A stretch of 64,000 nt of DNA from Vulcanisaeta thermophila (GTDB taxonomy: Archaea; Thermoproteota; Thermoprotei; Thermoproteales; Thermocladiaceae): assembly GCF_001748385.1 (NCBI RefSeq), contig NZ_BCLI01000004.1, positions 124,001-188,000 of the forward strand. The letters are read 5' to 3'. How positions within the stretch are numbered: the stretch's first letter is position 1; each line of letters opens with the position of its first letter. Positions 6,010 to 28,058 of the stretch are shown here, piece by piece. A program made the position numbers and the translations under genes. Below the pieces are notes generated by a model. That model saw only the letters and a list, made by a program, of their open reading frames with translations. It did not search any database and had not been told where the DNA came from.

Positions 6010-6060
6010 TGCGACCAAGTAAGAACACAGGCGCTTTATACACCCTTCTACCCATAACCC

Positions 6061-9901: not shown

Positions 9902-10023
9902 GCGCAGAGGAGTAATCAGTGCTTTGGACCCTCTTCACCGTTAAGTGGCTACCATTCTCATCACAGGTAATACAGGGAGTAGCGCTTTTAAAGCATTAGC
10001 CAAAAGCCTATGGCGGGTCACCC

Positions 10024-10683: not shown

Positions 10684-10690
10684 CTTAAAA

Positions 10691-11909: not shown

Positions 11910-12653
11910 TCACCTCCTAAGGAACTCCCTAAGCCTAGCCTTAACCTCCTGGGTTAATGATTCCCTGGCCAGGGTTTCCAGAAGCTCATCCCACTCATCA
12001 TTGACTCGCTGGGCCACTGACCTAATCATTAACTTCTTCAATTCCAAATAAACGCCACGCGGCACCGCATTTATCTTCCTCACAATGCCCAGCGCCACCT
12101 CCATCCCCTCATTAATGTCGCCCACAACCCTATGGACCAAACCCCAGGACAGCGCATCCTCAGTGCTCAGTTTGAAGTCACGGTCTAGGAAGAATCTGCT
12201 CCTGAGGATGCCGAAGAGGTACGGTGCGAAGGCAGGGGTCACTGGGACGAGCCCATACCTAATCCCGGGCAGGGAGAACTCACTACCCTTAACGGCCACG
12301 ACCTGGTCCATGAAGTATAGGATCTCGGCTGCGAAACCATAGGCTGATCCGTTAACTAAGCCCACCACTGGCCTGTCGCAGTTGATTATGGAGAGGGCCA
12401 GGTCCTTAATCGCCCTGAAGTACTTCCTGGACTCCTCAATATCCTTGAAGCTGTATATCTCGGCTAGGTCAAGGCCCGCGGAGAACACCCCACCAACCCC
12501 CGTGATTATCAGGCCCGCGTAACCCCCGCAACCATCCCTAACGGCCTCCGTGACCCTTAAAGTCAACTCAAGACTGAAGGCATTCCTCTTCTCGGGCCTA
12601 TTCAACCTTATTATTAACACGTCATCCCTGGACTCCCTGATCACGAGGCTCAT
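11910..12653 (-). CDS. enoyl-CoA hydratase/isomerase family protein with an altered active site
   Basis: A 247-aa crotonase-fold protein. The oxyanion-hole segment GGVFSAGLDLAEIY is present near residue 54 and the first acidic position is kept in GFAAEILY. The second position, normally Glu in the hydratases, falls in FSLPGIRYGLVP where Gly replaces it. That change suggests an isomerase, decarboxylase or thioesterase-like activity rather than simple hydration. ATG 12653 overlaps the CaiB stop codon as ATGA, so the two proteins are translationally coupled and may act on the same CoA ester. Confidence 0.85.
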   Translation of the reverse strand: MSLVIRESRDDVLIIRLNRPEKRNAFSLELTLRVTEAVRDGCGGYAGLIITGVGGVFSAGLDLAEIYSFKDIEESRKYFRAIKDLALSIINCDRPVVGLVNGSAYGFAAEILYFMDQVVAVKGSEFSLPGIRYGLVPVTPAFAPYLFGILRSRFFLDRDFKLSTEDALSWGLVHRVVGDINEGMEVALGIVRKINAVPRGVYLELKKLMIRSVAQRVNDEWDELLETLARESLTQEVKARLREFLRR

Positions 12654-13858
12654 TTTAGGGCACCCACCGCGCCCATCCTCACCAACTCCTCAATTTCATC
12701 ATCTGAGTAGCCCAATTCCCTGAGGATCTCCCTAGTGTGTTCGCCGAGCATTGGTGGTGCTCTGTCACTGGTGGTGTCCATGTCCCTGGCCCTTATTGGG
12801 TTATTCATGGCTTTAATACCCCCAATGAGTGGGTGCTTGAGTTCAATTACCATGCCCCTGGCCCTCGCATGCTCGCTCTCCACGGCCTCCTTAACATTAA
12901 GCACGGGAGCCACTGGTATGCCGTGCCTCTGTAGGAGTTCCACCCAGTGGTTCATGGGCGCCGTGAGGAATGTCTTCTCCAACTCCCTCTCCAGCTCCTC
13001 CCTATTCCTAACCCTGTCGGGGTTCGTCCTGAACCTTGGGTCGTTGATTAAATCCTCCCTACCAATGGCCCTACAGAACTCCTGCCATAGCTTCTCGGTG
13101 CCCACGGCCACTATGAAGAACCTACCATCACCAGCCCTAAAGCCCTGGTACGGGGCAATGTGGGCATGGGCACTACCTAACCTCCTGGGCACCTCACCAC
13201 TGGCGAAGTAGTGCGTTGCCTGGTGGGTGAGTATTGATAGGGCCGAGTCCATGAGGGACAGGTCTATGTACGTGCCTCTGCCAGTTCTCTCCCTAACCAT
13301 CAGCGCCGAGAGGACCGCGATTACGCAGTAAAGCCCCGTGGTTATGTCCACAATGGGAACCGCGAATTTAACTGGAGACCCATTGGGCTCGCCTGTCAGG
13401 TCCATGAGCCCGCTCATGGCCAGGGCCACGAGGTCATAGCCCGGGTAGTCCCTGTAGGGTCCGTACTGACCGAAGCCCGATATGGAGCAATAGATGATCC
13501 TGGGGTTCACCTTAACTACGTCATCATAACCAATACCCAGCCTGGCCGCCGTGCCCGGCCTAAAGGCCTCTATCATTACGTCAGCGGTCCTCACAAGCCT
13601 CATCATAACCTCCCTACCCCTATCATGCCTCAGGTTAATCACGATGGACCTCTTACCCCTATTGGCGCTTGCGAAGTACGCACTGTACTTCTCCGCGTAA
13701 AATGGCGGTCCCCAATCACGTGATGAATCACCCTCAGGTGGCTCCACCTTAATAACATCGGCCCCCAGGTCAGCCAGGAGCATGGATGCGAAGGGACCAG
13801 CCATAGCAGTAGTTAACTCCAAAACTCTAATTTTAAGAAGGGGTCGATTTAAGTCCAT
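12650..13858 (-). CDS. CoA-transferase family III (CaiB/BaiF)
   Basis: Transfers CoA between carboxylic acids by a class III mechanism, as in formyl-CoA and carnitine CoA-transferases. The N-terminal signature VLELTTAMAGPFASMLLADL is followed by GADVIKVEPPEGD. The conserved aspartate that forms the acyl anhydride is likely in PIVDITTGLY near residue 172. It is 402 aa from ATG 13858, which is 27 bases after a CTTTATAAATA box; the upstream in-frame ATG 13879 would overlap that box. It heads an operon with a crotonase, a hypothetical protein and Met8. The AT-rich island begins just upstream. Confidence 0.88.
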   Translation of the reverse strand: MDLNRPLLKIRVLELTTAMAGPFASMLLADLGADVIKVEPPEGDSSRDWGPPFYAEKYSAYFASANRGKRSIVINLRHDRGREVMMRLVRTADVMIEAFRPGTAARLGIGYDDVVKVNPRIIYCSISGFGQYGPYRDYPGYDLVALAMSGLMDLTGEPNGSPVKFAVPIVDITTGLYCVIAVLSALMVRERTGRGTYIDLSLMDSALSILTHQATHYFASGEVPRRLGSAHAHIAPYQGFRAGDGRFFIVAVGTEKLWQEFCRAIGREDLINDPRFRTNPDRVRNREELERELEKTFLTAPMNHWVELLQRHGIPVAPVLNVKEAVESEHARARGMVIELKHPLIGGIKAMNNPIRARDMDTTSDRAPPMLGEHTREILRELGYSDDEIEELVRMGAVGALK

Positions 13859-13936
13859 CGCTTTTGGATTATTACACATATTTATAAAGATTACCTTGTA
13901 ATATTATCTTTTTAATGCCTTTCTTTTAATACTAGA

Positions 13937-15313
13937 TTAATATTTAATTATTTGTTGAATCGTATTAGCAGTTGTTAATAACTTCTCATCATTATATAAA
14001 TCGCTCATTAATTGTATTCCCACAGGCAGCGAATTTATCTTACCAATTGGTAATGAAATAGCAGGGATTCCGATTAAGTTAGCTAATAATGTATATCGAG
14101 TTATTATTGATCTAAATTCAATTTCATGTCCCATAACTTCTACTATCTTTGGTGCCACAATTGGCACTGTGGGTGTTGCTATTATATCAACTCTCTTGAA
14201 GAGTTGGGCAATAGTACTTGCTATATATATTTTACGTCTAAGAGCATTTATATAATCTGTAGCACTAATTTTTAATCCCTGCCTAATTAATTCCGCAACA
14301 TCAGGACTATAATCATTACCTCTTAACTTAAAGAGCTCATTATGTACTGCAGCTGCCTCTGCAAGCCTTATAATCCTCTGGGTATTGTTAATGGTATCTA
14401 TATCTATGCTTATTTTCTCTATATTAAATCCCTCAGAGTTAAGTTTGCTTAGTGTATCCATGAAAACCTTATGTACAGGATTGTCCTCATCGACATGAAT
14501 GTAGCCTATGGTGACTCTTTTTGGATTAACCCCATCTTTAATTCTTAATAAATCAAATCTATACTTAATAGATTCATTGCTAATTACGGTGTAAAATACA
14601 TAAGCAATATCTAAAATATTATTACCTAATAACCCAATAGTATCTAAACTCCATGCTAATGGAAACACTCCCTCTCTGCTTATTAAATCATATGAAGGCT
14701 TATAGCCTATGACACCACAAAATGCAGCTGGTATTCTTATCGATCCTGAAGTATCTGTACCTATGGCAATTGGTACTGAATTGGTAGCCACGGCAACAGC
14801 AGAACCACCACTAGAACCCCCTGAGATATGCTCGGGATTATAAGGATTCCTAACGGGACCAAAATAAGAACTAATATTGGATACACCGGACGCGAATTCG
14901 TGTAAATTGGTCTTACCTATAATTATTGCATCTTCTGATAATAACTTATTTACTATATCCGCATTATATTTTGGAACATAATCACTAAATATTTTAGAAG
15001 CCATCGTTGTTTTAATATTTCTCGTAAATATATTATCCTTAACAGCCACAGGCACAGCAGCAAGTAAACCTACTATCTTACCTATCCTTAATTTACTCTC
15101 AATATCCTCGGCGATTCTTAAAGCCTCCTCTTCCAATACTGTGATGAAAGCATTTAATTTTATATTTTCACGTATTTTCATCAACGACTTCATGACCACA
15201 TCATATGGCGAAGAAACCCTTCTTACTACTTCATCAATGGTTAGTATTAATTTTGGTTCTGGCCTTAAATTAGGTTCTATTAATAAATCAAACATATCAT
15301 CAAATTTCATCAT
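13937..15313 (-). CDS. amidase signature family hydrolase
   Basis: A 458-aa Ser-cisSer-Lys amidase. The catalytic lysine is in VAVKDNIF near residue 90, the cis-serine in the glycine/serine box GGSSGGSAVAVA near residue 163, and the nucleophile in TDTSGSIRIP near residue 187. The family includes GatA, urea and allophanate amidohydrolases and many small-amide hydrolases. It is the last gene of the molybdenum hydroxylase operon and overlaps the 2Fe-2S subunit stop as ATGA. That context suggests a small amide product of the pathway, perhaps oxamate, as substrate (inference). The gene is AT-rich like the whole island. Confidence 0.88.
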   Translation of the reverse strand: MMKFDDMFDLLIEPNLRPEPKLILTIDEVVRRVSSPYDVVMKSLMKIRENIKLNAFITVLEEEALRIAEDIESKLRIGKIVGLLAAVPVAVKDNIFTRNIKTTMASKIFSDYVPKYNADIVNKLLSEDAIIIGKTNLHEFASGVSNISSYFGPVRNPYNPEHISGGSSGGSAVAVATNSVPIAIGTDTSGSIRIPAAFCGVIGYKPSYDLISREGVFPLAWSLDTIGLLGNNILDIAYVFYTVISNESIKYRFDLLRIKDGVNPKRVTIGYIHVDEDNPVHKVFMDTLSKLNSEGFNIEKISIDIDTINNTQRIIRLAEAAAVHNELFKLRGNDYSPDVAELIRQGLKISATDYINALRRKIYIASTIAQLFKRVDIIATPTVPIVAPKIVEVMGHEIEFRSIITRYTLLANLIGIPAISLPIGKINSLPVGIQLMSDLYNDEKLLTTANTIQQIIKY

Positions 15314-15819
15314 TTAACATCACCTACATTACCATACATAGCCTTACTAGCATCTACTATGGCATCCACTATATGTTTATAACCAGTGCACCTACAGATT
15401 AATCCATCTAACTCCTTGGCAACCTCCTCCTTAGATAATACCCTTTTATACTTATTAAGTAAATAATGACCAACTAGTACAAAAGCCGGTGTACAAAAAC
15501 CACATTGAAAAGCAAAATGTTCAATAAATTTCCTTTGTACTAAAGATAATTCCGTATCCTTACTAATTCCTTCAACTGTTATTATTTCAGCACCATCAGC
15601 CTCACTTGCAAGTATCATACATGATTTCACAGGCTTTCCGTTCATTAAAACTGTACATAATCCGCAGGATCCCTGACTACATGACTCCCTAACACTAGTT
15701 ATATGCAGTCTTTTTCTCAATACATCTAATAATGTCTCATAGGGTTTAACCCTAACTTCTCGATATATCCCATTAACTTTCAATCTAATAGTTAATTCCT
15801 CATATATTTCTTTGGTCAT
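15310..15819 (-). CDS. molybdenum hydroxylase 2Fe-2S subunit (XdhC/CoxS-like)
   Basis: The electron-transfer subunit of a three-subunit xanthine dehydrogenase-type enzyme. Two [2Fe-2S] sites are visible. The plant-ferredoxin-like cluster is CSQGSCGLC plus a downstream Cys (KSCMI). The second is CGFCTP with CRCTGY. The length, 169 aa, is normal. The start is ATG 15819, which overlaps the stop of the FAD subunit as ATGA and is preceded by GAGGTGAT; the longer in-frame start at 15855 lies inside the upstream gene. Gene order is large, FAD, 2Fe-2S, amidase. Confidence 0.92.
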   Translation of the reverse strand: MTKEIYEELTIRLKVNGIYREVRVKPYETLLDVLRKRLHITSVRESCSQGSCGLCTVLMNGKPVKSCMILASEADGAEIITVEGISKDTELSLVQRKFIEHFAFQCGFCTPAFVLVGHYLLNKYKRVLSKEEVAKELDGLICRCTGYKHIVDAIVDASKAMYGNVGDVK

Positions 15820-16655
15820 AGAATCACCTCTAACGTTCTCTTTGTTAATATCCATGCTAGATTTAATCTATATTCTTCAGAGGCCCTGACATCTGAGATT
15901 ACGTCTTTCTTAAATTCATTAAGTCTTCCCTTAACATTACGTAGAAATGCATCTTTATTGCCCTTAGAGTCAATAAAGTCATCAGTAAGATCTAATAATA
16001 TAGGTTTATTGGTTAATCCCATTATGGCTGTTTTCACTATATCTTTATTATTCTGCGAATATCTAATTGAAGCCACACTGACTATAGCCAATAAGCTATC
16101 GGCTTTGAAATCCATGAATTTTGACTTACCATCAATTTTCTTTAAACGAATCGACAAAACCAATTCATTAGGCCTTTGTGATGTTTTCATTACATCCTCA
16201 AAAAACTCAAGGCCTTTAACCACTCTTTCACCCGATTTACTACGTAAAACGACCTCCCCATTAAGAAGTAGAAATGTAGGAACAGCCGTTGCATATGGTG
16301 CGGCATTAACAATATTTCCTACCAACGTTGCTTGATTACGAAGTATATTATCACCTATATGCAGAATGGTCTCATAAAGCAATGGATACTTTTCTTTTAT
16401 CATACTATTTTCAATTAATTCCGTTAAAGTTACTTTTGCACCTATTTCTATCTCTCCGTTATCTCTATAAATAATTTTATTAAGACCAAGTTTCCTGATG
16501 CTCATTATGTAACTTGGTCTCATGAGCCCCCATTTCATCAATAATAATACCTTAGTACCTCCTGATATTACAACTATCTCGCTACCCATATCATTAAGTA
16601 TTTCCAACGCTTCATCTAGGGTCTCAGGTATTAACATCTTAAATGGAGGTAACAT
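15816..16655 (-). CDS. molybdenum hydroxylase FAD-binding subunit (CoxM-like)
   Basis: The FAD-binding middle subunit, about 279 aa, passing electrons from the 2Fe-2S subunit to an acceptor. The VAO-fold FAD motif appears as VVISGGTKVLLLMK, and a later segment, RNQATLVGNIVNAAP, matches the conserved flavin-contact region (usually ATxGGN). ATG 16655 follows AAGGGTGA with short spacing, just beyond the large-subunit stop codon, so translation is coupled. The upstream in-frame TTG at 16670 is inside the large-subunit gene. The electron acceptor cannot be told from sequence. Confidence 0.9.
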   Translation of the reverse strand: MLPPFKMLIPETLDEALEILNDMGSEIVVISGGTKVLLLMKWGLMRPSYIMSIRKLGLNKIIYRDNGEIEIGAKVTLTELIENSMIKEKYPLLYETILHIGDNILRNQATLVGNIVNAAPYATAVPTFLLLNGEVVLRSKSGERVVKGLEFFEDVMKTSQRPNELVLSIRLKKIDGKSKFMDFKADSLLAIVSVASIRYSQNNKDIVKTAIMGLTNKPILLDLTDDFIDSKGNKDAFLRNVKGRLNEFKKDVISDVRASEEYRLNLAWILTKRTLEVIL

Positions 16656-16659
16656 AGTC

Positions 16660-18996
16660 TCACCCTTCAAGAAGTTCTGGCCTTTGTTCCCTTATTGCTC
16701 TCCATACCCTTTCTGGTGTCATTGGAAGTTCATATAAGTTAACCTTTATGGCATTGTAAACTGCGTTACCAATGGCTGCAGCAACACCTAACATAGTATT
16801 TTCACCAATACCTCTGACACCGTAAGGACCCGATGGCTCTGGATTTTCTAATGCTATACTTATAATATCCTGAGGAATCTCGTCAGACCTAATTACCTTA
16901 TAATCTATAAGATTTGGATTAACTAGTACGCCATTATCAAACTTTAATCTCTCATAAAGTGCATAGCTGATACCCATTATTGCACCACCTATTATTTGCC
17001 CCTCAAGTAATTTAGGATTAACTACCTTACCTACATCAAAAACGCCAACATACTTAAGGACCTTTATTTTACCGGTTAGAACGTCAACTTCTATCTCAAC
17101 TGCATGAGCACCAAATGTAAAGAATGGAAACGGTATGCCTTGCCCATTTTCATCTAGGTATGTTAGGTCTGATTTAACAAAGTACCCTCTACCTAATATT
17201 GGCCCACCTATCACATTTCCATTAGGTAATGTATAGCCCATGGCTATCTCGCTTAACGTAACATATTCATTAGGTTCTGTTTTAGGGAAAACTTTTCCAT
17301 CCTTTATTTCGATTTCCTCAGCCTCTACGTTAAAGATCTTTGATGCAATGGACCTTATCTGAGCCTTAACATCTCTTATCGCAGCTAATAGGGCATTTCC
17401 ATCATAATATAAACTCCTACTTCCCACGGTCTGCCACGTATATGCAGACGTACTAGTATCCTTGATTATGTTTATCTTTATCTTTTCAATAGGTACTCCA
17501 AACTCCTCGGCAACTAATTGCGCTAATCCTGTAAGGGTTCCTTGACCTATCTCCGTGGTTCCAACGCTCACGTCTATTGTCCCATCCTCATTCAACCTAA
17601 CAAACGCCTGAGCCGCATTATTTGGAGGTACAGAGGGCCCTTTTATTGATGCCGCAATACCCTTTCCTCTAAATATGTATGGATCTTTGGGTTTATCTAC
17701 TTTATTAAGGTCTATCAGTTCTGCGGCTAATTTTAGGCATCTTTCTAAGTCTCCTGAATCCTTCGTTACCGGCTGTCCAGTTGATAGTGTTAAGCCAGGT
17801 CTCACAATATTTTTTAGCCTAAATGTTAGTGGATCTATACCTAATTTTTGTGCTGCTATGTCTATTATCCGTTCAATTACCCAATGAGCTTCTAAAATTC
17901 CAAAGCCCCTAAATGCAGTGGCATAAGGCTTATTGGTATACACGGTGTATGACTCCACTAAGATATTAGGAACATAGTAAACACTTGCACCAATATAACC
18001 CATCGTTCTACCCACATTTACGGCATAATCAGCATAGCCGCCTGAATCCACTAAATATTTGGCCTGAAATGCTAAGATCTTTCCATCCTCATTAACACCA
18101 AGTTTAGCCCATGCCTTTACACCAACCTTAGATGGTGCTACGAAGAAGTTTTCCTCTCTCGTGAAACTCAGCTTTACTGGTCTACCCTGAACCACCTTAG
18201 ATAACATGGCAACTAATGGTTCAAAGTTCACACCAGCTTTTCCTCCAAATCCGCCTCCTACATACGGTACGTGAACTACTATATTACTTTCAGGTAAGTG
18301 AAGAGCCTTTGCCGTTAAATATCTAACAGCAAAAGGTGACTGAGCGCTAGTCCATATTTCAACTATGTTATTAGGTAACCACCTGGCTATAACGCTTATA
18401 GGCTCCATATATACATGGTTCATCATATCTTCAGTAAATTGAGCCTCAACGACCTTAACAGAATCCCTTAAGAAAGCACTATTAACATCCCCTCTTCTAA
18501 GAATAAACTTATTTGCAATATTAGTACCAGGTACTGGATTTATATATCCCTTGTAATAGTTATATTTACCAAGATCATGTATGAGCGGTGCCGTAGGCTT
18601 AATAGCTTCTTCTACATCAAAAATTGCTGGTAATGGATCATACTCTACTTCCACCAATTCTGCAGCTCTTTCCGCCGCCTCCTCATTCTCAGCAATTACA
18701 GCAGCCACAGGCTCCCCATAAAACCTAACTTTATCCTCAGCTAAAAGCGGTCTATCGGATACATATATACCTACTCGATAACCTGCTAAGTCCTTACCTG
18801 TTACAACCGCCACTACTCCTGGTATACTAAGTGCTTTGCTTACGTCTATCCTAATTATGCGTGCATGTTGCTCAGTACTCCTAACAAGTTTTGCATAAAG
18901 CATCCCAGGCAATTCCATATCGTAAACATATAATGCCGTACCTGTTACTTTCTCGACACCATCAACCCTATATATTGATTTACCTATGGAGGACAT
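16660..18996 (-). CDS. molybdenum hydroxylase large (molybdopterin) subunit, XDH-like
   Basis: The 778-aa catalytic subunit that hydroxylates a carbon next to nitrogen or an aldehyde, using water as oxygen source. GGGFGGKAG near residue 245 and AFRGFGILEAH near residue 355 are molybdopterin-cytosine contacts. The catalytic glutamate is in VRGIGENTMLG near residue 734. The loop reads AFRGFG rather than the AYRCSFR of CO dehydrogenases, so a xanthine, purine or aldehyde type enzyme is favoured. ATG 18996 is about 30 bases from the TATA core of a 19-base element also present before the NCS1 permease. It starts the xdhL-M-S-amidase operon. Confidence 0.93.
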   Translation of the reverse strand: MSSIGKSIYRVDGVEKVTGTALYVYDMELPGMLYAKLVRSTEQHARIIRIDVSKALSIPGVVAVVTGKDLAGYRVGIYVSDRPLLAEDKVRFYGEPVAAVIAENEEAAERAAELVEVEYDPLPAIFDVEEAIKPTAPLIHDLGKYNYYKGYINPVPGTNIANKFILRRGDVNSAFLRDSVKVVEAQFTEDMMNHVYMEPISVIARWLPNNIVEIWTSAQSPFAVRYLTAKALHLPESNIVVHVPYVGGGFGGKAGVNFEPLVAMLSKVVQGRPVKLSFTREENFFVAPSKVGVKAWAKLGVNEDGKILAFQAKYLVDSGGYADYAVNVGRTMGYIGASVYYVPNILVESYTVYTNKPYATAFRGFGILEAHWVIERIIDIAAQKLGIDPLTFRLKNIVRPGLTLSTGQPVTKDSGDLERCLKLAAELIDLNKVDKPKDPYIFRGKGIAASIKGPSVPPNNAAQAFVRLNEDGTIDVSVGTTEIGQGTLTGLAQLVAEEFGVPIEKIKINIIKDTSTSAYTWQTVGSRSLYYDGNALLAAIRDVKAQIRSIASKIFNVEAEEIEIKDGKVFPKTEPNEYVTLSEIAMGYTLPNGNVIGGPILGRGYFVKSDLTYLDENGQGIPFPFFTFGAHAVEIEVDVLTGKIKVLKYVGVFDVGKVVNPKLLEGQIIGGAIMGISYALYERLKFDNGVLVNPNLIDYKVIRSDEIPQDIISIALENPEPSGPYGVRGIGENTMLGVAAAIGNAVYNAIKVNLYELPMTPERVWRAIREQRPELLEG

Positions 18997-19019
18997 CGCA
19001 AAACTTAAAATATTAACTT

Positions 19020-19038
19020 GATTTTTAAGTTTTACCTT
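19020..19038 (-). promoter_or_regulatory. 19-base promoter element, copy 1 (molybdenum hydroxylase operon)
   Basis: On the minus strand this reads AAGGTAAAACTTAAAAATC. It contains a BRE-like GTAAAA and a TATA-like CTTAAAAAT, and ends 23 bases before the large-subunit start. The identical 19 bases occur before the NCS1 permease (27117-27135). Confidence 0.6.
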
Positions 19039-19098
19039 TGCGTCGAAGTTTATATTGGAGCAAAAATTTAAAAACTAGATAAAATAATGTCTTCTAGT

Positions 19099-19956
19099 AT
19101 GTCCCTTGGCTGGATAGATGAGTGGCGTAAAATAGCAACGAATAAACCTAAGTATGACTGGTCAAAGTTAATCGACTGGTCAGCTGTGAAGATCTATGAT
19201 TTATCTCAACCGTTAAGTAACCTTACACCACCATTTCCAACATATCCGCCCTTTGAGTTTAAATGGATAAAAACAATAACTGAAAATCACGTGCAAGCAC
19301 AATATATTATGGGCCCACTACATATAGGTACTCATATGGATGGGCCTTTACACTTCATCCCTAACGGCCCTGATATTGGGAGTATACCCATCGATCATTG
19401 GGTAGGCGAGGGCGTTATAATCGACATCAGTGATGAAGTTGGCGATTTAGATATTTATACCAGCGAGATGATCATAAAGAAGGCTAAGGAACATAATTTG
19501 GAACTTAAGAAGGGAGACATCTTAATTATACATACCGGTTACCATAAGTATGCCTGGTATCAACCTACAGCGGACACTGAAAGATACATGTTAAGGCATC
19601 CAGGGCCTACGATAGAATTTGCTAAGTGGGTCATAAATATGCAATTTAAATGGCTGGGCATAGATGCTACATCACAAGACCATCCACTCAATACTGTAAT
19701 AAGGAGGGTAAGACCAGATATTGTAGAGGAGTTTGAAAGAAAGCATGGCAAAAAGATAGATGAATTAATGCCCTGGCCTGAAAATTACCAAGTAATGCAC
19801 ACATTACCATTTAGGTACGGCATAGTGCATGCAGAGAACCTCGGCGGTGAAATTAGTCAAGTAATTAATAAAAGATGCCTAATAGTGGGTGCACCATTTA
19901 AATTCTTAGGAGGAGAATCAGCTTACGCTAGAGTATTTGCTATATGTAGTGAGTAA
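19099..19956 (+). CDS. cyclase family protein (metal-dependent hydrolase)
   Basis: A member of the kynurenine formamidase/isatin hydrolase/cyclic-imide hydrolase family. The metal-binding signature HIGTHMDGPLHF lies near residue 75 (from this start), with a later conserved segment GWLGIDATSQDHP near residue 192. These enzymes hydrolyse cyclic or formyl amides with Zn or Mn. Start: ATG 19099 is about 28 bases after ATTTAAAAAC; ATG 19087 is too close to it. It heads the operon with FdrA, DUF1116 and DUF2877, which makes it a good candidate for ring opening of a cyclic ureide such as parabanate (inference). Confidence 0.87.
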   Translation: MSLGWIDEWRKIATNKPKYDWSKLIDWSAVKIYDLSQPLSNLTPPFPTYPPFEFKWIKTITENHVQAQYIMGPLHIGTHMDGPLHFIPNGPDIGSIPIDHWVGEGVIIDISDEVGDLDIYTSEMIIKKAKEHNLELKKGDILIIHTGYHKYAWYQPTADTERYMLRHPGPTIEFAKWVINMQFKWLGIDATSQDHPLNTVIRRVRPDIVEEFERKHGKKIDELMPWPENYQVMHTLPFRYGIVHAENLGGEISQVINKRCLIVGAPFKFLGGESAYARVFAICSE

Positions 19957-19966
19957 GGGTTAAGTC

Positions 19967-21604
19967 ATGACGGAGGTTAGAACTAAAATTCAAATTAAGT
20001 ATCCGTTTTCAAAAGTAATAATTAAACGTAATGTTTATAGAGATTCGATAGAATTATTAAAGATAACGGAAGATATTAAAAAAATACCAGGTATAATTCA
20101 AGCACTAATCGGCATGGCTACAGACACAAATATTAACTTGCTTAAATTACTTGGATTTGAAATAAACGAGTCAGTTACATCCAGCGATTTAATAATAGCC
20201 ATAGGTGCATCTAGCGAAGAATCATTAAATAATGCAATTAACGAGGCAATTAGATTATTAGAACAGGGATTTGTTAGTCATGAATTTAGGTATTACGACT
20301 TAGATACCGCATTAAAAGAGAACCCTGATGTTGACATTGCACTTATATCGATTCCAGGACAATACGTTAAGGATGTGGCATTTAAATTAATTGATAAAGG
20401 CATTAATCTTCACATATTTAGTGATAATGTACCTATTCATGACGAAATTGAAATAAAGAAGAGAGCCCTTGAACGTAACGTACTTGTTTTAGGACCTGGA
20501 GCTGGTACGGTAATTATAAAGGGTGTGGGACTTGGTTTTGCTAATAAGGTTCTCGTGGGGGATGTAGGAATCGTAGCTGCATCCGGTACAGGTCTTCAAG
20601 AAGTTTCCTCATTATTATCAAATATAGGTATAGGAATAAGTTATGGACTTGGTGTTGGCGGAAATGATGTAAAAGATTCCGTAGGTGGTATTATGACCAT
20701 ACAGTCATTAAATGTTCTCATGAATGATGAAGATACAAGAATAATAGGTTTAATATCAAAGGTTCCTGATAAGAATACCGAAAATTACATAATTAATTAT
20801 ATAATTAATCATGTATCAAAACCCGTAGTCATTAATTTCTTAGGTGGTAGTTCAGACTTGAAGGTAAAAAAAGAAAATATAACATTTGCAGCAACACTTC
20901 ATCAAGCCATTCTTAAAATAGCCAAGTTAAGATCGGAAGAGGATTACATGAAGGCTGTTAAGGAGTATGCCATGGATTTCGATGAAATATTTAAAATGGC
21001 TTCAGAATTACGATCATTATTATCACACGAGCAAAAATATATAAGAGGTTTGTTCGTTGGAGGTACCTTCACACACGAGTCTCAAGTTATCCTTAAGGAA
21101 TTAATAAATAATCTTTATTCTAATTCACCAATAGAAGGCGTAAATAAGTTGGAAGATCCATTTAAGAGTATTTATAATTCCGTTATCGATATGGGTGATG
21201 AAGTATTTACAAGGGGTAGGCCTCATCCTATGATAGATCCTACTTTAAGGATCAATAGGATATTAAATGAAGTTAAGGATACTAATATAGCCATATTACT
21301 GATGGACTTTGTTCTTGGATATGGTTCACATAATGACCCTGTAGGTGCTCATATTGAAGCACTAAAGCAAGCTACTGAAGAGCTTAGGGATAGAAATAAA
21401 TATTTAATAATAATAGCTCATATATGCGGAACTAAGGACGATCCTCAGAATTTACAGGAGCAAATAAATAAGCTTAAATCGTTAGATAATGCAATAATAA
21501 TGCCAACGAATGCCCTAGCTGCATTTTTAGCCGGAATGATAGTTAGCGATTTACCAAGGGAAAAGCTTAAAAACATATATTATAGGTTGCTAATGGTGGA
21601 GTGA
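19967..21604 (+). CDS. fdrA: FdrA/AllF family protein (acyl-CoA synthetase-like), oxamate carbamoyltransferase component
   Basis: A 545-aa protein resembling the alpha subunit of succinyl-CoA synthetase. Visible segments are the Rossmann-like ALISIPGQYVKDVAFKLIDKG near residue 123, LGPGAGTVIIKGVGLGFAN near residue 173, and VAASGTGLQEVSSLLSNIG near residue 204. This order is characteristic of FdrA. E. coli FdrA (AllF) was reported, together with AllG and AllH, to form oxamate carbamoyltransferase of anaerobic allantoin use. All three partners follow here, 10 bases after the cyclase gene. The C-terminal segment usually found in FdrA-type proteins seems to be the separate 54-aa gene downstream. 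Confidence 0.85.
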   Translation: MTEVRTKIQIKYPFSKVIIKRNVYRDSIELLKITEDIKKIPGIIQALIGMATDTNINLLKLLGFEINESVTSSDLIIAIGASSEESLNNAINEAIRLLEQGFVSHEFRYYDLDTALKENPDVDIALISIPGQYVKDVAFKLIDKGINLHIFSDNVPIHDEIEIKKRALERNVLVLGPGAGTVIIKGVGLGFANKVLVGDVGIVAASGTGLQEVSSLLSNIGIGISYGLGVGGNDVKDSVGGIMTIQSLNVLMNDEDTRIIGLISKVPDKNTENYIINYIINHVSKPVVINFLGGSSDLKVKKENITFAATLHQAILKIAKLRSEEDYMKAVKEYAMDFDEIFKMASELRSLLSHEQKYIRGLFVGGTFTHESQVILKELINNLYSNSPIEGVNKLEDPFKSIYNSVIDMGDEVFTRGRPHPMIDPTLRINRILNEVKDTNIAILLMDFVLGYGSHNDPVGAHIEALKQATEELRDRNKYLIIIAHICGTKDDPQNLQEQINKLKSLDNAIIMPTNALAAFLAGMIVSDLPREKLKNIYYRLLMVE

Positions 21605-21769
21605 ATGACAATAAAAATAAAAAGTGGTAAAATTAAGGTATTAAATATTGGAATAGAGTTGTTCTATAGTGAACTTAAAAAGCAGGGTATTGATGTGATA
21701 CATGTTGAATGGAAACCACCTATTAAGCTTGAAAAGGAAATTGAAGATATTTTATCTAAGGTGATGTAA
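21605..21769 (+). CDS. 54-aa conserved-looking protein between fdrA and the DUF1116 gene
   Basis: The ATG follows the fdrA stop codon directly and the stop is two bases before the DUF1116 start, so the gene is embedded in the operon. The product contains VLNIGIELFYSELKKQGIDV and HVEWKPP, then an acidic helix. A similar V(I)NVGL...F...L..QG..V..V.W.PP pattern is, to my memory, found in larger FdrA or DUF1116-associated proteins. It is therefore probably a detached domain of the carbamoyltransferase complex rather than junk. GGTGAT near its end acts as the ribosome-binding site for the next gene. Confidence 0.7.
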   Translation: MTIKIKSGKIKVLNIGIELFYSELKKQGIDVIHVEWKPPIKLEKEIEDILSKVM

Positions 21770-21771
21770 TA

Positions 21772-23034
21772 ATGCTTAAGGATGAGATAGAAAAAGCTAA
21801 TAATGAAGCTGTAGAAAGAATGATGGAAGCGCAAGCTATTTGGGTTGATATTGCTGAAGCACGTAAAGTAATACCCGGATTTAAAGAGTACATGTTAACG
21901 CATGCCGGTCCTCCTATTACATGGAGTCAAGCCTCAGGTCCATTAAGGGGGGCATTAATAGGCGCTGTTTTATATGAAGGGTGGGCTAATTCGGTAGATG
22001 AAGCGGTAAAGATGCTTGAACGAGGTGAAATAATTTTAAAGCCGAATCATGAATTAAATGCTGTAGGACCAATGGCTGGCGTTATTTCACCCTCAATGCC
22101 TGTTATTGTGGTTAAGGACCCTAAATATGGAAATACTGCATACTCAAATTTAAATGAGGGTATTGGTAAAGTGCTTAGATACGGTGCCTATGATAAATCT
22201 GTTTTGGATAGATTAAAATGGATGCATGATGAATTTTTCCCAGTATTAAAGGCTACTATAGATACCGCTGTTAAGGAGAAGGGGGGTATTGACTTGAAAA
22301 CAATAATCTCTCAAGCTTTAACAATGGGGGATGAATGTCACAATAGGCATGTAGCCGCCACATCATTATTTATTAACGAGGTTATTGAGTATATGATTAA
22401 AGCTGATATACCTAAGGATCAATTATTAAGAGTTTTAAACTTTATGCGAAATAATACATTCACATTCCTAAACTTCGCTATGGCAGCTGCTAAGGTGTTT
22501 ACATTAGCAGGGCATAATATTAAATATAGCACGATAGTTACGGTTATGAGTAGAAATGGAACAGAGGTTGGAATATGGGTTAGCGGTCTTGGTAATAGAT
22601 GGTTCACAGCACCAGCACCTATACCACGAGGTATATTTTTCCCTGGATATTCACAGGAGGATGCCAACCCAGACATTGGTGATAGTGCAATAACGGAAAC
22701 CGCAGGCTTTGGCGGATTTGCTATGGCAGCATCTCCAGCTATAATTTCATGGGTAGGGGGTACGGTAGACTATGCAATAGAAGTCACGAATAAGATGTAT
22801 CAAATAACACACACCAAACATAAATACTTTAGAATACCATATCTATCATTCCAAGGAACACCTGTTGGTATTGATATTAGGAAAGTGCTTAAAACGGGCA
22901 TTGAACCTACATTGAATACAGGAATAGCACATAAAGAAGCAGGTATAGGACAAATAGGGGCAGGTATTGTTCAGATACCAATAGAGGCATTCAAGAAAGC
23001 TCTTGTCGCATATGCCGAATATTATGGAATATAA
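21772..23034 (+). CDS. allG: DUF1116 family protein (YlbE/AllG), oxamate carbamoyltransferase component
   Basis: A 420-aa protein whose sequence closely follows the YlbE family. Conserved blocks include LTHAGPPITWSQASGPLRGA near residue 42, MAGVISPSMPVIVV near residue 100, LNEGIGKVLRYGAY near residue 126, and a C-terminal TGIAHKEAGIGQIGAGIV near residue 383. In E. coli the homologue is one of three proteins assigned to oxamate carbamoyltransferase, which converts oxalurate and phosphate into oxamate and carbamoyl phosphate. GGTGA, 7 bases before the ATG, is the likely ribosome-binding site. Its strong conservation argues that the pathway is functional here. Confidence 0.88.
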   Translation: MLKDEIEKANNEAVERMMEAQAIWVDIAEARKVIPGFKEYMLTHAGPPITWSQASGPLRGALIGAVLYEGWANSVDEAVKMLERGEIILKPNHELNAVGPMAGVISPSMPVIVVKDPKYGNTAYSNLNEGIGKVLRYGAYDKSVLDRLKWMHDEFFPVLKATIDTAVKEKGGIDLKTIISQALTMGDECHNRHVAATSLFINEVIEYMIKADIPKDQLLRVLNFMRNNTFTFLNFAMAAAKVFTLAGHNIKYSTIVTVMSRNGTEVGIWVSGLGNRWFTAPAPIPRGIFFPGYSQEDANPDIGDSAITETAGFGGFAMAASPAIISWVGGTVDYAIEVTNKMYQITHTKHKYFRIPYLSFQGTPVGIDIRKVLKTGIEPTLNTGIAHKEAGIGQIGAGIVQIPIEAFKKALVAYAEYYGI

Positions 23035-23908
23035 ACCTATCATATATGGAATAGGTGAAGAATTACTAAAGGCATTAAATAATGAAGGCGAAATAAATAT
23101 TAACCTTAATATAAAGACTTCTCATAACATTTATGGTTCATTTAATAACCATTTAGTTCCAATATCTCAACATCCATTAATAACACCATACACCATAATG
23201 ATTGATCATACATTGATGAAAAAATTCTATGAGAATGCATGTAAAAACATAATTATTAATCTTAAAAATAAATCATTATTTATTAAATGCTCTACAGAAA
23301 AGGATTTCTTTTATTTAAATAATATAAATGAAATAGAGATCTTTAAACGAATAAAGCCATTATGTGATTCTGAAATACCCTCTTCAATAATTCGCAATTC
23401 ATTATACACACTTATCATTATTATTACTTTAATAAATAATCCAATGGATTTACAAGTTATAGATAAATTAAGACGTATTATTAATACATATGACCGAGTA
23501 AATTCTAAGGTGATCTTGACATTAATTAATGAGGTCTTAGGCTTAGGTAGTGGAAGTACACCTTCAGGTGATGATTTAGTCATTGGATTATTAACGGCGC
23601 TAGATAATCATGTTCATGAATTACGCAAAGACTTAATATCAATGATCTATAAAACTACAAAATTAAGTCAGGCATTAATTAAAGAGATAATTGAGGATCA
23701 ATATTATTTAATAACTCTTAATTCTCTAAAAAATAACATATGTATGAAAATAGAATCTAATATTTATTCTAAGATAATTGATAATATTATTAACATTATT
23801 CGAATTGGAAATACATCTGGAATATTCATGGCATTAGGATTAATATCTGGACTTCTTATTAGATGGAATAGTATCAATATATTAAAAGATATATTAAGAA
23901 AAGTATAA
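23024..23908 (+). CDS. allH: DUF2877 family protein (YlbF/AllH-like)
   Basis: A 294-aa AT-rich protein. The family signature is GLGSGSTPSGDDLVIGLLTA near residue 170, the most conserved block of DUF2877 proteins. In E. coli the corresponding gene (ylbF, allH) follows ylbE, as here. The chosen ATG 23024 overlaps the DUF1116 stop codon by 11 bases; ATG 23012 or TTG 23003 in the same frame are alternatives. It completes the AllF-G-H set and is the last gene of the cyclase operon. Outside the signature the sequence is lysine/isoleucine/asparagine-rich and poorly conserved. Confidence 0.83.
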   Translation: MEYKPIIYGIGEELLKALNNEGEININLNIKTSHNIYGSFNNHLVPISQHPLITPYTIMIDHTLMKKFYENACKNIIINLKNKSLFIKCSTEKDFFYLNNINEIEIFKRIKPLCDSEIPSSIIRNSLYTLIIIITLINNPMDLQVIDKLRRIINTYDRVNSKVILTLINEVLGLGSGSTPSGDDLVIGLLTALDNHVHELRKDLISMIYKTTKLSQALIKEIIEDQYYLITLNSLKNNICMKIESNIYSKIIDNIINIIRIGNTSGIFMALGLISGLLIRWNSINILKDILRKV

Positions 23909-24001
23909 TATATTTCACTAAACTATGTATAAATAAAGACTTTTAAATTAAAAGAAGTTAAGTAGAAGATAGTGATATATAATCGATGATAAGGAGCCAT
24001 T

Positions 24002-24020
24002 TCCGTAAAATTTAAATATA
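24002..24020 (+). promoter_or_regulatory. Promoter element resembling the 19-base motif (NCS2 permease)
   Basis: The sequence TCCGTAAAATTTAAATATA matches 13 of 19 positions of the element before the molybdenum hydroxylase and NCS1 genes. It keeps GTAAAA and TTAAA. The TATA part lies about 25 bases before ATG 24040. Part of the similarity is expected of any BRE/TATA promoter. Confidence 0.45.
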
Positions 24021-24039
24021 AGATAGGTGTTTCTACAAG

Positions 24040-25419
24040 ATGACAGAAAATGAAGGTGTCGGTAAGAGGAGTTCACTCAGTAACGTTGGTAATCTGATTT
24101 ACCATATTGAGGATAAATTATCAATACCAGAGTACCTTATTTATGGTTTTCAACAATTATTAGTCATGGATAGTGTCTTTGCTTTACCCGTTATATTGGG
24201 CTACGCATTTCAATTACCACCTTCCGAAATAGCGTACCTTATTCAAGCAACTCTTATAGGAGCTGGTATAACTACCCTATTACAGTCAGCCACATTATTA
24301 AGGCTACCCATTGCACAGGGTATAGGGGCCGCTGCCACTGTAGTAGCTATCTCATTAGCACAGTTAAAGTATAATCTAGCCACGGTATCATTTGTATTTG
24401 CTATATCAATGCTGATAATATTATTTCTACTTGCACCAATAATACCAACTAAATCTCAAGGTAGAAAAAGCATACTGGAAGTCTTATTAATACTCATTAA
24501 GGCACCTCAGGTATATGGAGTTTTAATAACATTAATAGGTATAACGCTGATAGGCGCGGCTTGGAGGCTGATAGGTACAGCCCACTATGAAACACTATAT
24601 AACATTGGTGCATTAATAACAGCCGTAGCAATACTGGTATTAATATTTACTTTCCGTAAAGGCATAGCTAGATTTGGTTCAATATTAATTGGAATATTTA
24701 TTGGGGCAGTGTATGCATATGGGGTTGGTATAATGAATATTAAACAGGTATATGAGGCACCTATAGTAGCATTACCACGTGTTTGGCCCTGGGGTATAGT
24801 ACAGTGGGATTTAGTACCAGCAGCAATATTACCTGCTTTTATAGCGTCCCTAATGCTCCCCACAGAAGCTATTGGCGTTTATTATACAGTGGGCGCATTG
24901 GATAATGTATCAATCTCAGACAAAAGAGTAAGAAATGGTATTCTCGGTGAGACGTTGGGATCATTGGTATCCTTACTAATAGGAAGTCTACCAACAACTA
25001 CCTATGCCCAAAATGTCGGTGTTATTGCAATAACAAGAGTAGGTGCGAGAAGAGTATTTGTTACCACGGGAATACTATTAATAATTCTTGGTCTGATACC
25101 TAAAATAGGCGCGTTCATAGTATCGATACCTGGCCCTATACTGGGGAGTGCTTTTGTAATAATATATTCAATGTTATTATTAACTGGCATAGGCATATTA
25201 GCTGATATGGAGTGGAATGATAAAAATGCCATGATAGTTGCAGTATCATTAGGAATTGCCTTGGGCATTTCATCAATACCAAGCACGGTAATAGTTAAGT
25301 TACCACTATTCATTAGGGTCTTAATGACTCCGTTAATAATTGGTACTGTATTAGCAATAATCCTAAACTTAATAGTCAATATACTCCCATCATTAATTAA
25401 GAAAAATAAGCAGCGGTAA
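24040..25419 (+). CDS. NCS2 family nucleobase permease (xanthine/uracil/ureide type)
   Basis: A 459-aa membrane protein with 12-14 hydrophobic segments of the nucleobase:cation symporter-2 fold. Conserved features include VPAAILPAFIASLMLPTEAI near residue 268, positioned like the substrate-binding TM8 loop. It is followed by LPTTTYAQNVGVIAITRVGAR near residue 323, which contains the family's TTTYAQNVG segment. The second motif is typical of NCS2 carriers for xanthine, urate or uracil. It has its own promoter, 25 bases from the ATG, and lies beside the carbamoyltransferase operon, so it probably imports the pathway's cyclic substrate. It is convergent with the NCS1 gene. Confidence 0.9.
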   Translation: MTENEGVGKRSSLSNVGNLIYHIEDKLSIPEYLIYGFQQLLVMDSVFALPVILGYAFQLPPSEIAYLIQATLIGAGITTLLQSATLLRLPIAQGIGAAATVVAISLAQLKYNLATVSFVFAISMLIILFLLAPIIPTKSQGRKSILEVLLILIKAPQVYGVLITLIGITLIGAAWRLIGTAHYETLYNIGALITAVAILVLIFTFRKGIARFGSILIGIFIGAVYAYGVGIMNIKQVYEAPIVALPRVWPWGIVQWDLVPAAILPAFIASLMLPTEAIGVYYTVGALDNVSISDKRVRNGILGETLGSLVSLLIGSLPTTTYAQNVGVIAITRVGARRVFVTTGILLIILGLIPKIGAFIVSIPGPILGSAFVIIYSMLLLTGIGILADMEWNDKNAMIVAVSLGIALGISSIPSTVIVKLPLFIRVLMTPLIIGTVLAIILNLIVNILPSLIKKNKQR

Positions 25420-25472
25420 TATTAAGAAGTAAATAATATTTAAAATTTTAATTATTTTTCCTTTTATTTTAA

Positions 25473-27095
25473 TTACTTACTTTTGACATTGAATATTTGT
25501 CTAACTTCATCAGAGAGATAACCTTCCTTCCATATTGAACCTCTTAACACAGGTTGATACTTGGGGATAACCCAATAAACCATTAATGGTGTATAGATGA
25601 TACCTGAAAGGGCGAATGAAATAAGCCAAGAATTGCTAAATATTATGCTGTGATATGGTATAAAGGGCGCATAAATTATGAACTCTACAATTGCAAACGT
25701 TATAAATGCCGCCGGATTAATTCCACGCCAATATCTAAATCTACCTCTACTCCAGAAGACATCTGTTATATCGAACTTAAAGCGCCTAATCAATGCATAG
25801 TCAAAGATTATAATACCCTCTACACTGCCTAATAAGCCACCATAAGTAAGTAACCAACTATATAGATAACCATAAGCATTGCCATAGAAGGTCCAGGCAC
25901 CTAAGGCTATAGATACTAACACTACAATTAATACTCCTCTAAACCATGTTAAGTATCTTGGGAATGTATTTGCAAAATCATAAGCTGGACCCACGGTATT
26001 AGCAAATACATTTACTGAAAAGGTTGCTAGAAGGAAAATTACATTTAGGAATATTGCTAAACCAGTAGGGAGGTATAGCGTCGATACAAGTATTGGATCC
26101 CAGATTGTCCTATGATATAAGTGCATGATAGCTCCTGTTGTCATTACTCCTAATATTCCCACTGCTAACATCATTAATGGCATAGGTATTTGACCAACAG
26201 TTTGTGCAAATTGACTTTTAGCAAACCTAGTATAATCAGGCATTGAAATGGCCATGGTAGCCCAATATGCAATGTTAGCATTTAGAAACGCCAACCATGC
26301 AATCCAATATGAGGGACCACTAATTGTCGGAGATATTATTGCCTTTGTATAATGCCAATTAGCATGCGTCATAAAATAAATCCAGATTGTTATGAAGCCT
26401 AGAAGCACTAAAGGTGCTGCTGATCTTGCAAACCACTTAAGGGCAGGTTGGGCCTCAGGTACTGGTGAAAAATATAGGAGAAGTAATTGGAATATTATTA
26501 TTAATGCGAAGGTTATCCAGAAAATTTGCGGAAAAGCAATACTTAATGTGAATGGATTAGCAATGCCTTTATCCACTAAAGTTTGTATTATGTCTAGCTT
26601 ATGAGCTAATATTGCATATATCCCCACGGCAGCCTCGGTCATTATGTAACTTTCTATCCCCCACCAACCAGCCCCAATCACTGCCCTGATCCAACTTGGA
26701 AATATAGCCCCATAAATGCCCCACCTGGTCCTCGCTAACTGCGGCTCGGCAAGCCCGTACCTGGCGCCTGCATGTGATTCTATTATCATGGGTATTAAGA
26801 CTATGGCGTTGCCCAGGAAAATAGCCAGGAGAGAGTCCCATGTGCCGAGACCAAAGACCAAGCCTACGCTTGCCAGTGACCAACTGGGCACTATGAACGT
26901 CATACCAAACCATATGGCAGCGTATGTATACCAATCCCACGTCCTCTTACTAATTGCTATTGGGTGGAAGTCTTTATTCCAAAGCCATTTCTCCTCGGGA
27001 TATTCTTTGATAAGTTCAACCTGCCCCCTCTGTGCATCATACTTTACAGCTTGAACACGATCCTTAGCCCGCTCTTTTCCTACATCATCACCCAT
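25473..27095 (-). CDS. NCS1 family permease (allantoin/hydantoin/cytosine type)
   Basis: A 540-aa carrier of the nucleobase:cation symporter-1 family with about twelve membrane segments. The start region KDFHPIAISKRTWDWYTYAA is typical of the family, followed by GARYGLAEPQLARTRWGIYG, the usual substrate-site loop, near residue 110. NPAAFITFAIVEF near the C-terminus is also characteristic. NCS1 proteins carry allantoin, hydantoins, uracil or cytosine. ATG 27095 is 28 bases from the TATA core of the 19-base element shared with the molybdenum hydroxylase operon. The N-terminal coding part is GC-rich and the remainder AT-rich, an oddity shared with the carbamate kinase gene. Confidence 0.9.
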   Translation of the reverse strand: MGDDVGKERAKDRVQAVKYDAQRGQVELIKEYPEEKWLWNKDFHPIAISKRTWDWYTYAAIWFGMTFIVPSWSLASVGLVFGLGTWDSLLAIFLGNAIVLIPMIIESHAGARYGLAEPQLARTRWGIYGAIFPSWIRAVIGAGWWGIESYIMTEAAVGIYAILAHKLDIIQTLVDKGIANPFTLSIAFPQIFWITFALIIIFQLLLLYFSPVPEAQPALKWFARSAAPLVLLGFITIWIYFMTHANWHYTKAIISPTISGPSYWIAWLAFLNANIAYWATMAISMPDYTRFAKSQFAQTVGQIPMPLMMLAVGILGVMTTGAIMHLYHRTIWDPILVSTLYLPTGLAIFLNVIFLLATFSVNVFANTVGPAYDFANTFPRYLTWFRGVLIVVLVSIALGAWTFYGNAYGYLYSWLLTYGGLLGSVEGIIIFDYALIRRFKFDITDVFWSRGRFRYWRGINPAAFITFAIVEFIIYAPFIPYHSIIFSNSWLISFALSGIIYTPLMVYWVIPKYQPVLRGSIWKEGYLSDEVRQIFNVKSK

Positions 27096-27116
27096 ACAAC
27101 ATATAATTTTATAAGG

Positions 27117-27135
27117 GATTTTTAAGTTTTACCTT
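27117..27135 (-). promoter_or_regulatory. 19-base promoter element, copy 2 (NCS1 permease)
   Basis: Identical over 19 bases to 19020-19038. On the minus strand it reads AAGGTAAAACTTAAAAATC and ends 21 bases before the NCS1 start codon. It fills most of the 43-base gap to carbamate kinase, giving the permease its own promoter. Confidence 0.6.
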
Positions 27136-27138
27136 GAT

Positions 27139-28058
27139 TTACTTTATTGTTATTTTAGTACCTATCTTGCCTTTAATTATATATTTAGCTTTTCCCAGAG
27201 GACCTATGTACGCGACTTTACCACCATTTTCTAGAAATTCAATTGCAGCCTTAATTTTAGGTCCCATGTTTCCTGAGGGAAAGTACCCTTTAGAATAATA
27301 GTATTTGATTTCGTCTAGCGTTACACTTAGCAATGGCTTAGCATCTGCTTTTTATAGTTTATATACACATAATCTACATCTGTTAATATAATTAACATAT
27401 CAGCTTTTAATAATGTAGCTAATAATTGACTTGCTATATCCTTATCAATAACAGCCTCAACACCTTCAAGCTCATTATCTTTTATCACTATAGGTACTCC
27501 ACCCCCACCTACACATATTGGGATATACCCATTATTAAGCAAAAGTTTAATCGCATTTAATTCTATTATAGATAATGGCTCTGGTGATGGAACAACCCTC
27601 CTAAACCCTCCCCTCGGGTCTTCCTTAAAAACCCAGTTCCTTTCCCTGCTTAGTCTCTCGGAGGTTGGTTTGTCGTAGATAGGGCCTATGTACTTCGTGG
27701 GGTTTTGAAAGGATGGGTCATTTTCATGAATGAGTGTTCTAGTTATTATAACAATGGGTTGCCGGTTAATCCCACGCTGCCGAAACTCATTATCCAGTGC
27801 ATTGGCAAGTAAGTAACCCATCCAACCCTCCGTGGCCGCGCCCATCATGTCCAGGCTAAGGTGATCGCTTAATCTCTCGGCGAGGAGGCCTACCTGGGGC
27901 CCGTTACCGTGGGTCACGACCACGTCGAGGCCCAGCATTATTAGGTCAGCCACGTCCTGGGCGGCTAATTTAACCCTCTCAATCTGCTCCCTGGGGTCTC
28001 CAACCCTGGCGCCCTCCATTGCGAATGCATTACCGCCCAGTGCAATTACCGCGAGCAC
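27139..28058 (-). pseudogene. arcC: carbamate kinase, frameshifted
   Basis: Carbamate kinase makes ATP from carbamoyl phosphate and ADP. The N-terminal frame (27327-28058) has VIALGGNAF, HGNGPQVGLLAER, ICVGGGGVPIV and LTDVDYVYINY. The C-terminal frame (27333-27139) continues with LSVTLDEIKYY, PSGNMGPKIKAAIEFLENGG and KIGTKI. The two parts abut at a run of five A (minus strand, after codon Tyr-Lys). Adding one A would fuse them into a normal protein of about 306 aa. It may be a sequencing error, a real mutation or recoding. It is the expected last energy-yielding step after oxamate carbamoyltransferase. Confidence 0.85.

Follow-up and report, generated by a model that had tools for sequence, protein, structure and literature searches.

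A molybdenum hydroxylase and AllFGH-type gene island of Vulcanisaeta thermophila with a probable role in ATP-yielding oxidative pyrimidine catabolism

In silico analysis of a 64,000-nucleotide stretch of the Vulcanisaeta thermophila genome (contig NZ_BCLI01000004.1, positions 124,001 to 188,000; hereafter the window) was directed at a gene island at positions 13,937-28,058, which probably encodes oxidative pyrimidine catabolism in a form that is phosphorolytic and yields ATP; we infer its substrates and reactions from the identities of the genes, their conserved linkage, their partners and their phylogeny. In the proposed pathway a nucleobase permease would import uracil, related clusters also admitting cytosine and probably thymine, and a three-subunit molybdenum (Mo) hydroxylase would convert uracil and water to barbiturate and two electrons at C6, an sp2 carbon next to N1 and hence of the type usually targeted by this enzyme family. 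A cyclase-family hydrolase (PF04199) would open barbiturate to ureidomalonate (N-carbamoylmalonamate), and this N-acylurea, which is oxalurate lengthened by one CH2, would be phosphorolysed to malonamate and carbamoyl phosphate by AllF, AllG, AllH and a 54-amino-acid protein (p54), by the chemistry proposed for Escherichia coli AllFGH acting on oxalurate. Carbamate kinase would turn carbamoyl phosphate into ATP, CO2 and ammonia, while malonamate would be cleaved to malonate and ammonia by an amide hydrolase, of the amidase type in the window and of the CN-hydrolase type in several bacteria. Oxidation by way of barbiturate and ureidomalonate is in itself known chemistry (PMC4051656, PMC3758960).

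All open reading frames named in a preliminary description of this DNA, namely those for an amidase, a xanthine dehydrogenase (XDH)-type hydroxylase, the cyclase, FdrA (AllF), DUF1116 (AllG), DUF2877 (AllH), NCS2 and NCS1 permeases and carbamate kinase, were recovered in place, and profile scores matched them to the families assigned there. The right operon, on the plus strand, runs from the cyclase gene through those for AllF, p54, AllG and AllH, with gaps of 0-10 nucleotides or overlaps, and is followed on the same strand by the NCS2 gene. AllF (19967..21604) matches PF00549 (Ligase_CoA; 98 bits) and the FdrA structure 3dmy (227 bits), is 33% identical to E. coli AllF, and reaches 387 bits with the FdrA subfamily model, below its cut-off of 433. 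AllG (21772..23034; PF06545, 303 bits; solved relative 3clq) is 47% identical to its E. coli counterpart, and AllH (23003..23908) matches PF11392 with 52 bits against a cut-off of 25. The homologues of all three subunits of an AllFGH-type carbamoyltransferase are accordingly present in one operon, the C-terminal AllF domain being present as a separate gene. The latter encodes p54 (21605..21769), which was recognized by a hidden Markov model and by its conserved linkage to AllF and AllG. The model, built on 15 stand-alone copies, detects E. coli AllF at its C-terminus (E 1.5e-8) and, in the archaeal loci L023 and L024, an extension at the N-terminus of AllG (E about 1e-14); these p54-AllG fusions occupy 4790-6187 and 9408-10796, respectively. 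By this homology p54 corresponds to the C-terminal domain of E. coli AllF, here split off as a separate gene. The domain is mobile within the complex, being part of AllF in E. coli and of AllG in these two archaea, and it stands alone in the window. With a p54 gene in 19 of the 20 archaeal AllG loci, and AllF present in all 19, p54 is a probable fourth subunit of the enzyme.

The proposed barbiturate ring-opening hydrolase (19087..19956; PF04199, 126 bits) carries the metal motif HIGTHMDGPLH (pattern HxGTHxDxPxH), and its relatives, among them the structurally solved kynurenine formamidase and isatin hydrolase, are enzymes that open or cleave amide bonds. Behind the right operon lies the gene for the NCS2 nucleobase permease (24040..25419; PF00860, Xan_ur_permease, 195 bits), which is xanthine/PbuX-like with a QNVG motif (TTYAQNVGVIAITR) and scores 247 bits with the pbuX model, below the cut-off of 414. 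The left operon, on the minus strand, holds overlapping genes for the amidase and the three hydroxylase subunits: 2Fe-2S (15310..15855; PF01799 and PF00111, Fer2_2/Fer2), FAD (15816..16670; PF00941, FAD_binding_5, 133 bits) and Mo cofactor (16660..18996; MoCoBD_1/2), the last being a putative uracil 6-hydroxylase (uracil dehydrogenase). With iron-sulphur, FAD and Mo subunits and catalytic Glu and Arg motifs (GGGFGGKAG, TAFRGFG and GIGE in the Mo subunit) the enzyme belongs to the XDH family, and the nearest solved structures of the Mo subunit are 4-hydroxybenzoyl-CoA reductase, CoxL and quinoline 2-oxidoreductase. The amidase-signature hydrolase (13937..15313; PF01425, 333 bits), a candidate malonamate (carboxy-amide) amidohydrolase, has intact Lys and Ser-cisSer-Ser motifs (VAVKDN, GGSSGG, GTDTSGS), and its family also occurs in AllFGH loci of Chloroflexi and of two archaea (L028 and L029). 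A match of the amidase to malonamidase E2 was at family level only and was not used as substrate evidence.

The conservation of this gene set was determined in 100 non-redundant AllFGH loci including the window (20 archaeal and 80 from a scan of GTDB genomes), which are not phylogenetically independent and some of which are truncated by contig ends. The cyclase is present in 69/100 and the Mo hydroxylase in 56/100, with both in 51/100 (Fisher p about 7e-8), a conservation of the module far beyond chance; its gene order differs among loci, which speaks for selection on linkage. Permease, hydroxylase, cyclase and FdrA genes were found together in many genomes, so that one condition by which the preliminary description would have been refuted, homologous clusters in which permease, hydroxylase and FdrA genes never co-occur, did not hold. 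XdhC, CoxG and MobA, which serve Mo-cofactor maturation, and PucR regulators are frequent partners; an XdhC homologue also lies at G000:C1. A tree of the module Mo subunits has two clades, clade A (n=29, support 100; the window, L041, L052, L067, L081, L096, L107, L025 and kin) and clade B (n=25, mostly Chloroflexi); the hydroxylases were therefore not pooled as one enzyme, and substrate evidence was drawn from clade A only. Culturable hosts of clade-A loci are Clostridium rhizosphaerae (L096) and Alkaliphilus transvaalensis (L119). Both AllG and the Mo subunit of the window are sister to those of the L041/G329 cluster (support 98 and 100), which comprises AllF-p54-AllG-AllH, Mo hydroxylase, two NCS1 permeases, cyclase (81% identical to that of the window), amidase (43%), ArcC carbamate kinase (48%) and a cytosine deaminase. 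Hydantoinase/allantoinase-like genes occur in three loci only, all of Caldilineaceae (Chloroflexi; L068, L099 and L105) and with a clade-B hydroxylase; these AllF-AllG loci hold a cyclase and a hydantoinase-like gene that shares about 40% identity with E. coli HyuA, two of them also a CN-hydrolase, and they possibly represent a different substrate branch.

Uracil permease, cytosine deaminase, decarboxylases of the malonate and methylmalonyl-CoA types and methylcitrate genes among the partners point to uracil or thymine as substrate and to a three-carbon (C3) acid as product. Two operons which combine AllF, p54, AllG and cyclase with a clade-A hydroxylase (L067 and L096) contain uracil permeases that score 703 and 639 bits against a cut-off of 477 and share 70% and 58% identity with E. 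coli UraA, and the UraA-type ENxG motif is found in most bacterial clade-A loci that have an NCS2 permease. The cytosine deaminase of the sister cluster scores 482 bits against a cut-off of 438 and is 45% identical to E. coli CodA. At the other end of the route, the operons of L050 and L052 run on into malonate decarboxylase (MdcA/D/E), of which the L052 subunits MdcA (alpha; 887 bits against a cut-off of 789), beta (339 against 228) and gamma (271 against 237) all exceed their cut-offs, with an acyl carrier protein also present. Genes for an mmdA-like subunit, OAD-gamma, a biotin carrier and the beta subunit of a Na+-pump decarboxylase lie within the operons of L081 and L107. Decarboxylase genes are present in 14/51 loci with Mo hydroxylase and cyclase as compared to 3/49 other loci (p=0.0066). 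As malonate and methylmalonate are expected from oxidative degradation of uracil and thymine, and oxalate from oxalurate, these decarboxylases favour the pyrimidines. Methylcitrate-cycle genes and a biotin-type decarboxylase also adjoin AllFGH clusters in four archaea (L025, L031, L036 and L046). The L025 group has decarboxylase, biotin carrier, biotin ligase and methylcitrate-cycle genes, and L025 itself 2-methylcitrate synthase and PrpB over cut-off, PrpD and a Na+-pump decarboxylase; the gene content of the four suggests a thymine branch via methylmalonate and propionyl-CoA.

Several observations weigh against pyrimidine oxidation in the window. The main one against uracil is that its NCS2 permease lies nearer to XanQ/PbuX than to UraA, with Q rather than E in the signature motif, for which reason the case for uracil is stronger for the module as a whole than for the window. 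The NCS1 permease is a resident gene, whose sole relative with a structure is the hydantoin transporter Mhp1; the carbamate kinase gene is frameshifted as assembled; the host genome has neither a cytosine deaminase above cut-off nor a biotin-type carboxyltransferase; the mmdA-like subunits score below cut-off; and the related loci compared are not independent samples. In addition, the only assays of E. coli AllFGH used oxamate and carbamoyl phosphate (PMC11326118), and activity on ureidomalonate is predicted by analogy.

The preliminary description had proposed that a cyclic ureide such as hydantoin is imported, oxidized to parabanate and opened to oxalurate, which would be phosphorolysed to oxamate and carbamoyl phosphate, with oxamate going on to oxalate. 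Its outline holds up, in that the linked genes are consistent with import of a nucleobase-like compound, Mo hydroxylation, ring opening by the cyclase, AllFGH phosphorolysis, ATP from carbamate kinase and ammonia from the amidase, but its compounds, from hydantoin through parabanate, oxalurate and oxamate to oxalate, are not supported, and we regard this chain as unlikely. The C5 of hydantoin is an sp3 carbon and thereby a poor target for an XDH-type enzyme. Although the window AllG resembles that of E. coli, whose AllFGH is an oxamate carbamoyltransferase (PMC11326118), NCS1 matches Mhp1, and the cyclase relative isatin hydrolase opens a similar 1,2-dicarbonyl lactam, the E. coli AllG is distant from that of the window and outside the clade linked to Mo hydroxylase and cyclase. 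AllD and AllC were each found in 0/100 loci, and the genes of the island include neither AllD nor allantoin genes; no clear oxalate, ureidoglycolate or allantoin enzyme was seen in the related loci, where the acid-processing partners serve C3 rather than C2 acids. The only oxc-like match in the 100 loci proved to be an acetolactate synthase; this thiamine pyrophosphate enzyme, encoded next to AllG in L033, was rejected as an oxalyl-CoA decarboxylase.

Equally improbable, in our estimation, is that the island acts on a purine or on a ring derived from one, be it xanthine, urate or a breakdown product, by means of an XDH-type purine hydroxylase, with the C3 partners found elsewhere being irrelevant to the window. 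The xanthine-permease-like NCS2 with its Q motif agrees with this, and the best NCBIfam model of the Mo subunit is XdhA, albeit with 542 bits, under the cut-off of 780. However, the Mo subunit has GGGFGGKA where XDH proper has GGGFGGKE and falls outside XDH proper, Ala replacing the purine-binding Glu; moreover, the sister cluster has a cytosine deaminase, and the island lacks urate, allantoin or xanthine ring-opening genes.

A triazine or biuret-type substrate, with AllFGH phosphorolysing 1-carboxybiuret from cyanuric acid, is very improbable for the window. AtzD-family genes do occur in other AllFGH clusters (L065, L066, L110, L118 and L023, of Clostridia and one archaeon), mostly without Mo hydroxylase and cyclase, and in the two that were scanned against NCBIfam, L066 and L023, they are cyanuric acid amidohydrolases over cut-off (563 and 544 vs 360 bits); three of the five clusters also have carbamate kinase. 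This gene content suggests ATP-yielding breakdown of cyanurate or carboxybiuret in those clusters, and a published nitrifier allFGHK adjoins a biuret hydrolase (PMC12625717). Against this, AtzD is missing from 51/51 loci with Mo hydroxylase and cyclase, no island gene matches its family (PF09663), and cyanurate needs no hydroxylase.

With regard to the origin of the island, the preliminary description had treated the locus as one AT-rich block, and low GC does extend from the amidase to NCS1 (25-40%, with third-position GC (GC3) of 0.19-0.37, as compared to 52-55% and 0.61-0.69 in the flanking genes), but NCS1 and the frameshifted carbamate kinase gene are resident genes of the genus, outside the foreign AT-rich block. 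Six congeners, some with fragmentary genomes, have the same flanking genes, with NCS1 and ArcC adjacent between the enoyl-CoA hydratase and Gar1/TFB genes and the rest of the block missing; as these two genes hold the same place there, only about 13,937-25,419 looks inserted. AllG was found in 21/398 sampled genomes of the host phylum and in 0/10 other sampled genomes of the host genus. The atypical base composition, together with the lack of the block at the syntenic site in close relatives, marks it as a probable horizontally acquired island, and insertion of the amidase-to-NCS2 block beside a resident permease and carbamate kinase is favoured over loss in the congeners because of composition and phyletic pattern. 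The history of the locus may nevertheless be more complex than a simple insertion, as NCS1 is also AT-rich here and inverted. A repeat search for mobile-element ends across 11.8-28.6 kb gave only short AT-rich matches besides a shared promoter-like element.

This 19-nucleotide element, the exact repeat AAGGTAAAACTTAAAAATC, lies on the minus strand upstream of the Mo operon (19020..19038) and again upstream of NCS1 (27117..27135); these are the 2 matches in the window at up to 3 mismatches, with 0.02 expected. NCS1 itself (25473..27095, minus strand; TIGR00800, 226 bits) is 76-80% identical to the congener NCS1 at the same place on the opposite strand. Since the two copies are identical and the congeners read lack such an element in front of NCS1, its presence suggests that NCS1 may now be co-regulated with the island. 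The arcC gene (27139..28058, minus strand), about 70% identical to that of congeners, is broken by a 1-nucleotide deletion in an A-run near 27350, leaving an N-terminal frame at 27327-28058 (arcC model, 278 bits) and the last approximately 64 amino acids in another frame at 27139-27333; the indel may be a sequencing error of the draft assembly, or equally a real loss. GC drops along arcC from about 0.6 to 0.3, but identity to congeners declines only a little, from 70-74% to 63-68% and then 56-63%, without a clear break; a chimera at the island edge, possible at most, was rejected for this reason. A decaying acquisition that has ceased to work as a pathway is a reading that we consider highly unlikely, for although the ArcC frame is broken, the congeners lack the block and the flanking NCS1 is inverted, the other genes are full length with the checked motifs intact, the Mo operon and NCS1 have the identical promoter element, and the single A-run indel may be an assembly artefact. 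A family III CoA-transferase (12650-13879), between the island and the enoyl-CoA hydratase, is 51% identical to one near the L041 AllFGH cluster; it was rejected as an island member and classed as a flanking gene because of its native composition and because a related fragment lies beside the same enoyl-CoA hydratase in one congener (L147). It could possibly serve malonyl-CoA formation, which is suggestive at most.

Beyond the window, we lean, somewhat less firmly than for the island itself, towards AllFGH being a general N-acylurea phosphorylase family that ends several ring-opening routes (oxalurate, ureidomalonate, carboxybiuret), on account of the AtzD-AllFGH clusters, the nitrifier AllFGHK by a biuret hydrolase (PMC12625717) and E. 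coli AllFGH. The clade of the window would then power an undescribed, widespread, ATP-yielding pathway by which archaea and bacteria oxidize uracil, cytosine and thymine, using a uracil hydroxylase of the Mo type and a second kind of barbiturase, from PF04199. A search of the open-access literature, which did not extend to subscription journals, found no description of the module. If correct, this would supply candidate genes for the hydroxylation of uracil, for a second barbiturase and for a final step that conserves energy, would suggest a role for many AllFGH copies outside enterobacteria, and would show how anaerobes and hyperthermophiles could draw nitrogen and ATP from RNA bases. It also cautions against labelling every AllFGH as an oxalurate enzyme.

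Among known systems, E. coli AllFGH (FdrA-YlbE-YlbF) with AllK (PMC11326118) is similar in having AllF, AllG and AllH in one operon and, by analogy, in the carbamoyl-phosphate-forming chemistry proposed for the window; a carbamate kinase gene also lies nearby in the window, but it is frameshifted as assembled and ancestral to the genus. The E. coli system differs in that the window has the C-terminal AllF domain as a separate gene, an AllG of a distant clade, and Mo hydroxylase and cyclase in place of AllD, AllC and AllE upstream. The allFGHK genes of ammonia-oxidising archaea and comammox Nitrospira (PMC12625717) likewise combine AllFGH with carbamate kinase in archaea; they are read by their authors as oxalurate degradation and are described beside biuret/triuret hydrolases, with Mo hydroxylase and cyclase unmentioned. 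In the YgeW/YqeA branch of the reductive uric acid pathway (PMC12507026) a ureido compound is also phosphorolysed to carbamoyl phosphate and then yields ATP, but YgeW belongs to an unrelated transcarbamylase family and ygeW is in 0/100 loci. The same source lists four pyrimidine-degrading routes, of which the reductive Pyd, Rut and URC pathways share the starting base with the module; none of their enzymes appeared in the annotation of the module genes, and the ring would be oxidized in the window rather than reduced or split by RutA. The oxidative pathway of barbiturase and ureidomalonase in some bacteria (cited in PMC4051656 and PMC3758960) shares the barbiturate and ureidomalonate intermediates proposed here, and its barbiturase is described in the former as rare and little studied. 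In the window, ring opening would instead be performed by a PF04199 hydrolase and not by an AtzD-family barbiturase, and ureidomalonate would be phosphorolysed with a yield of ATP rather than hydrolysed to urea.

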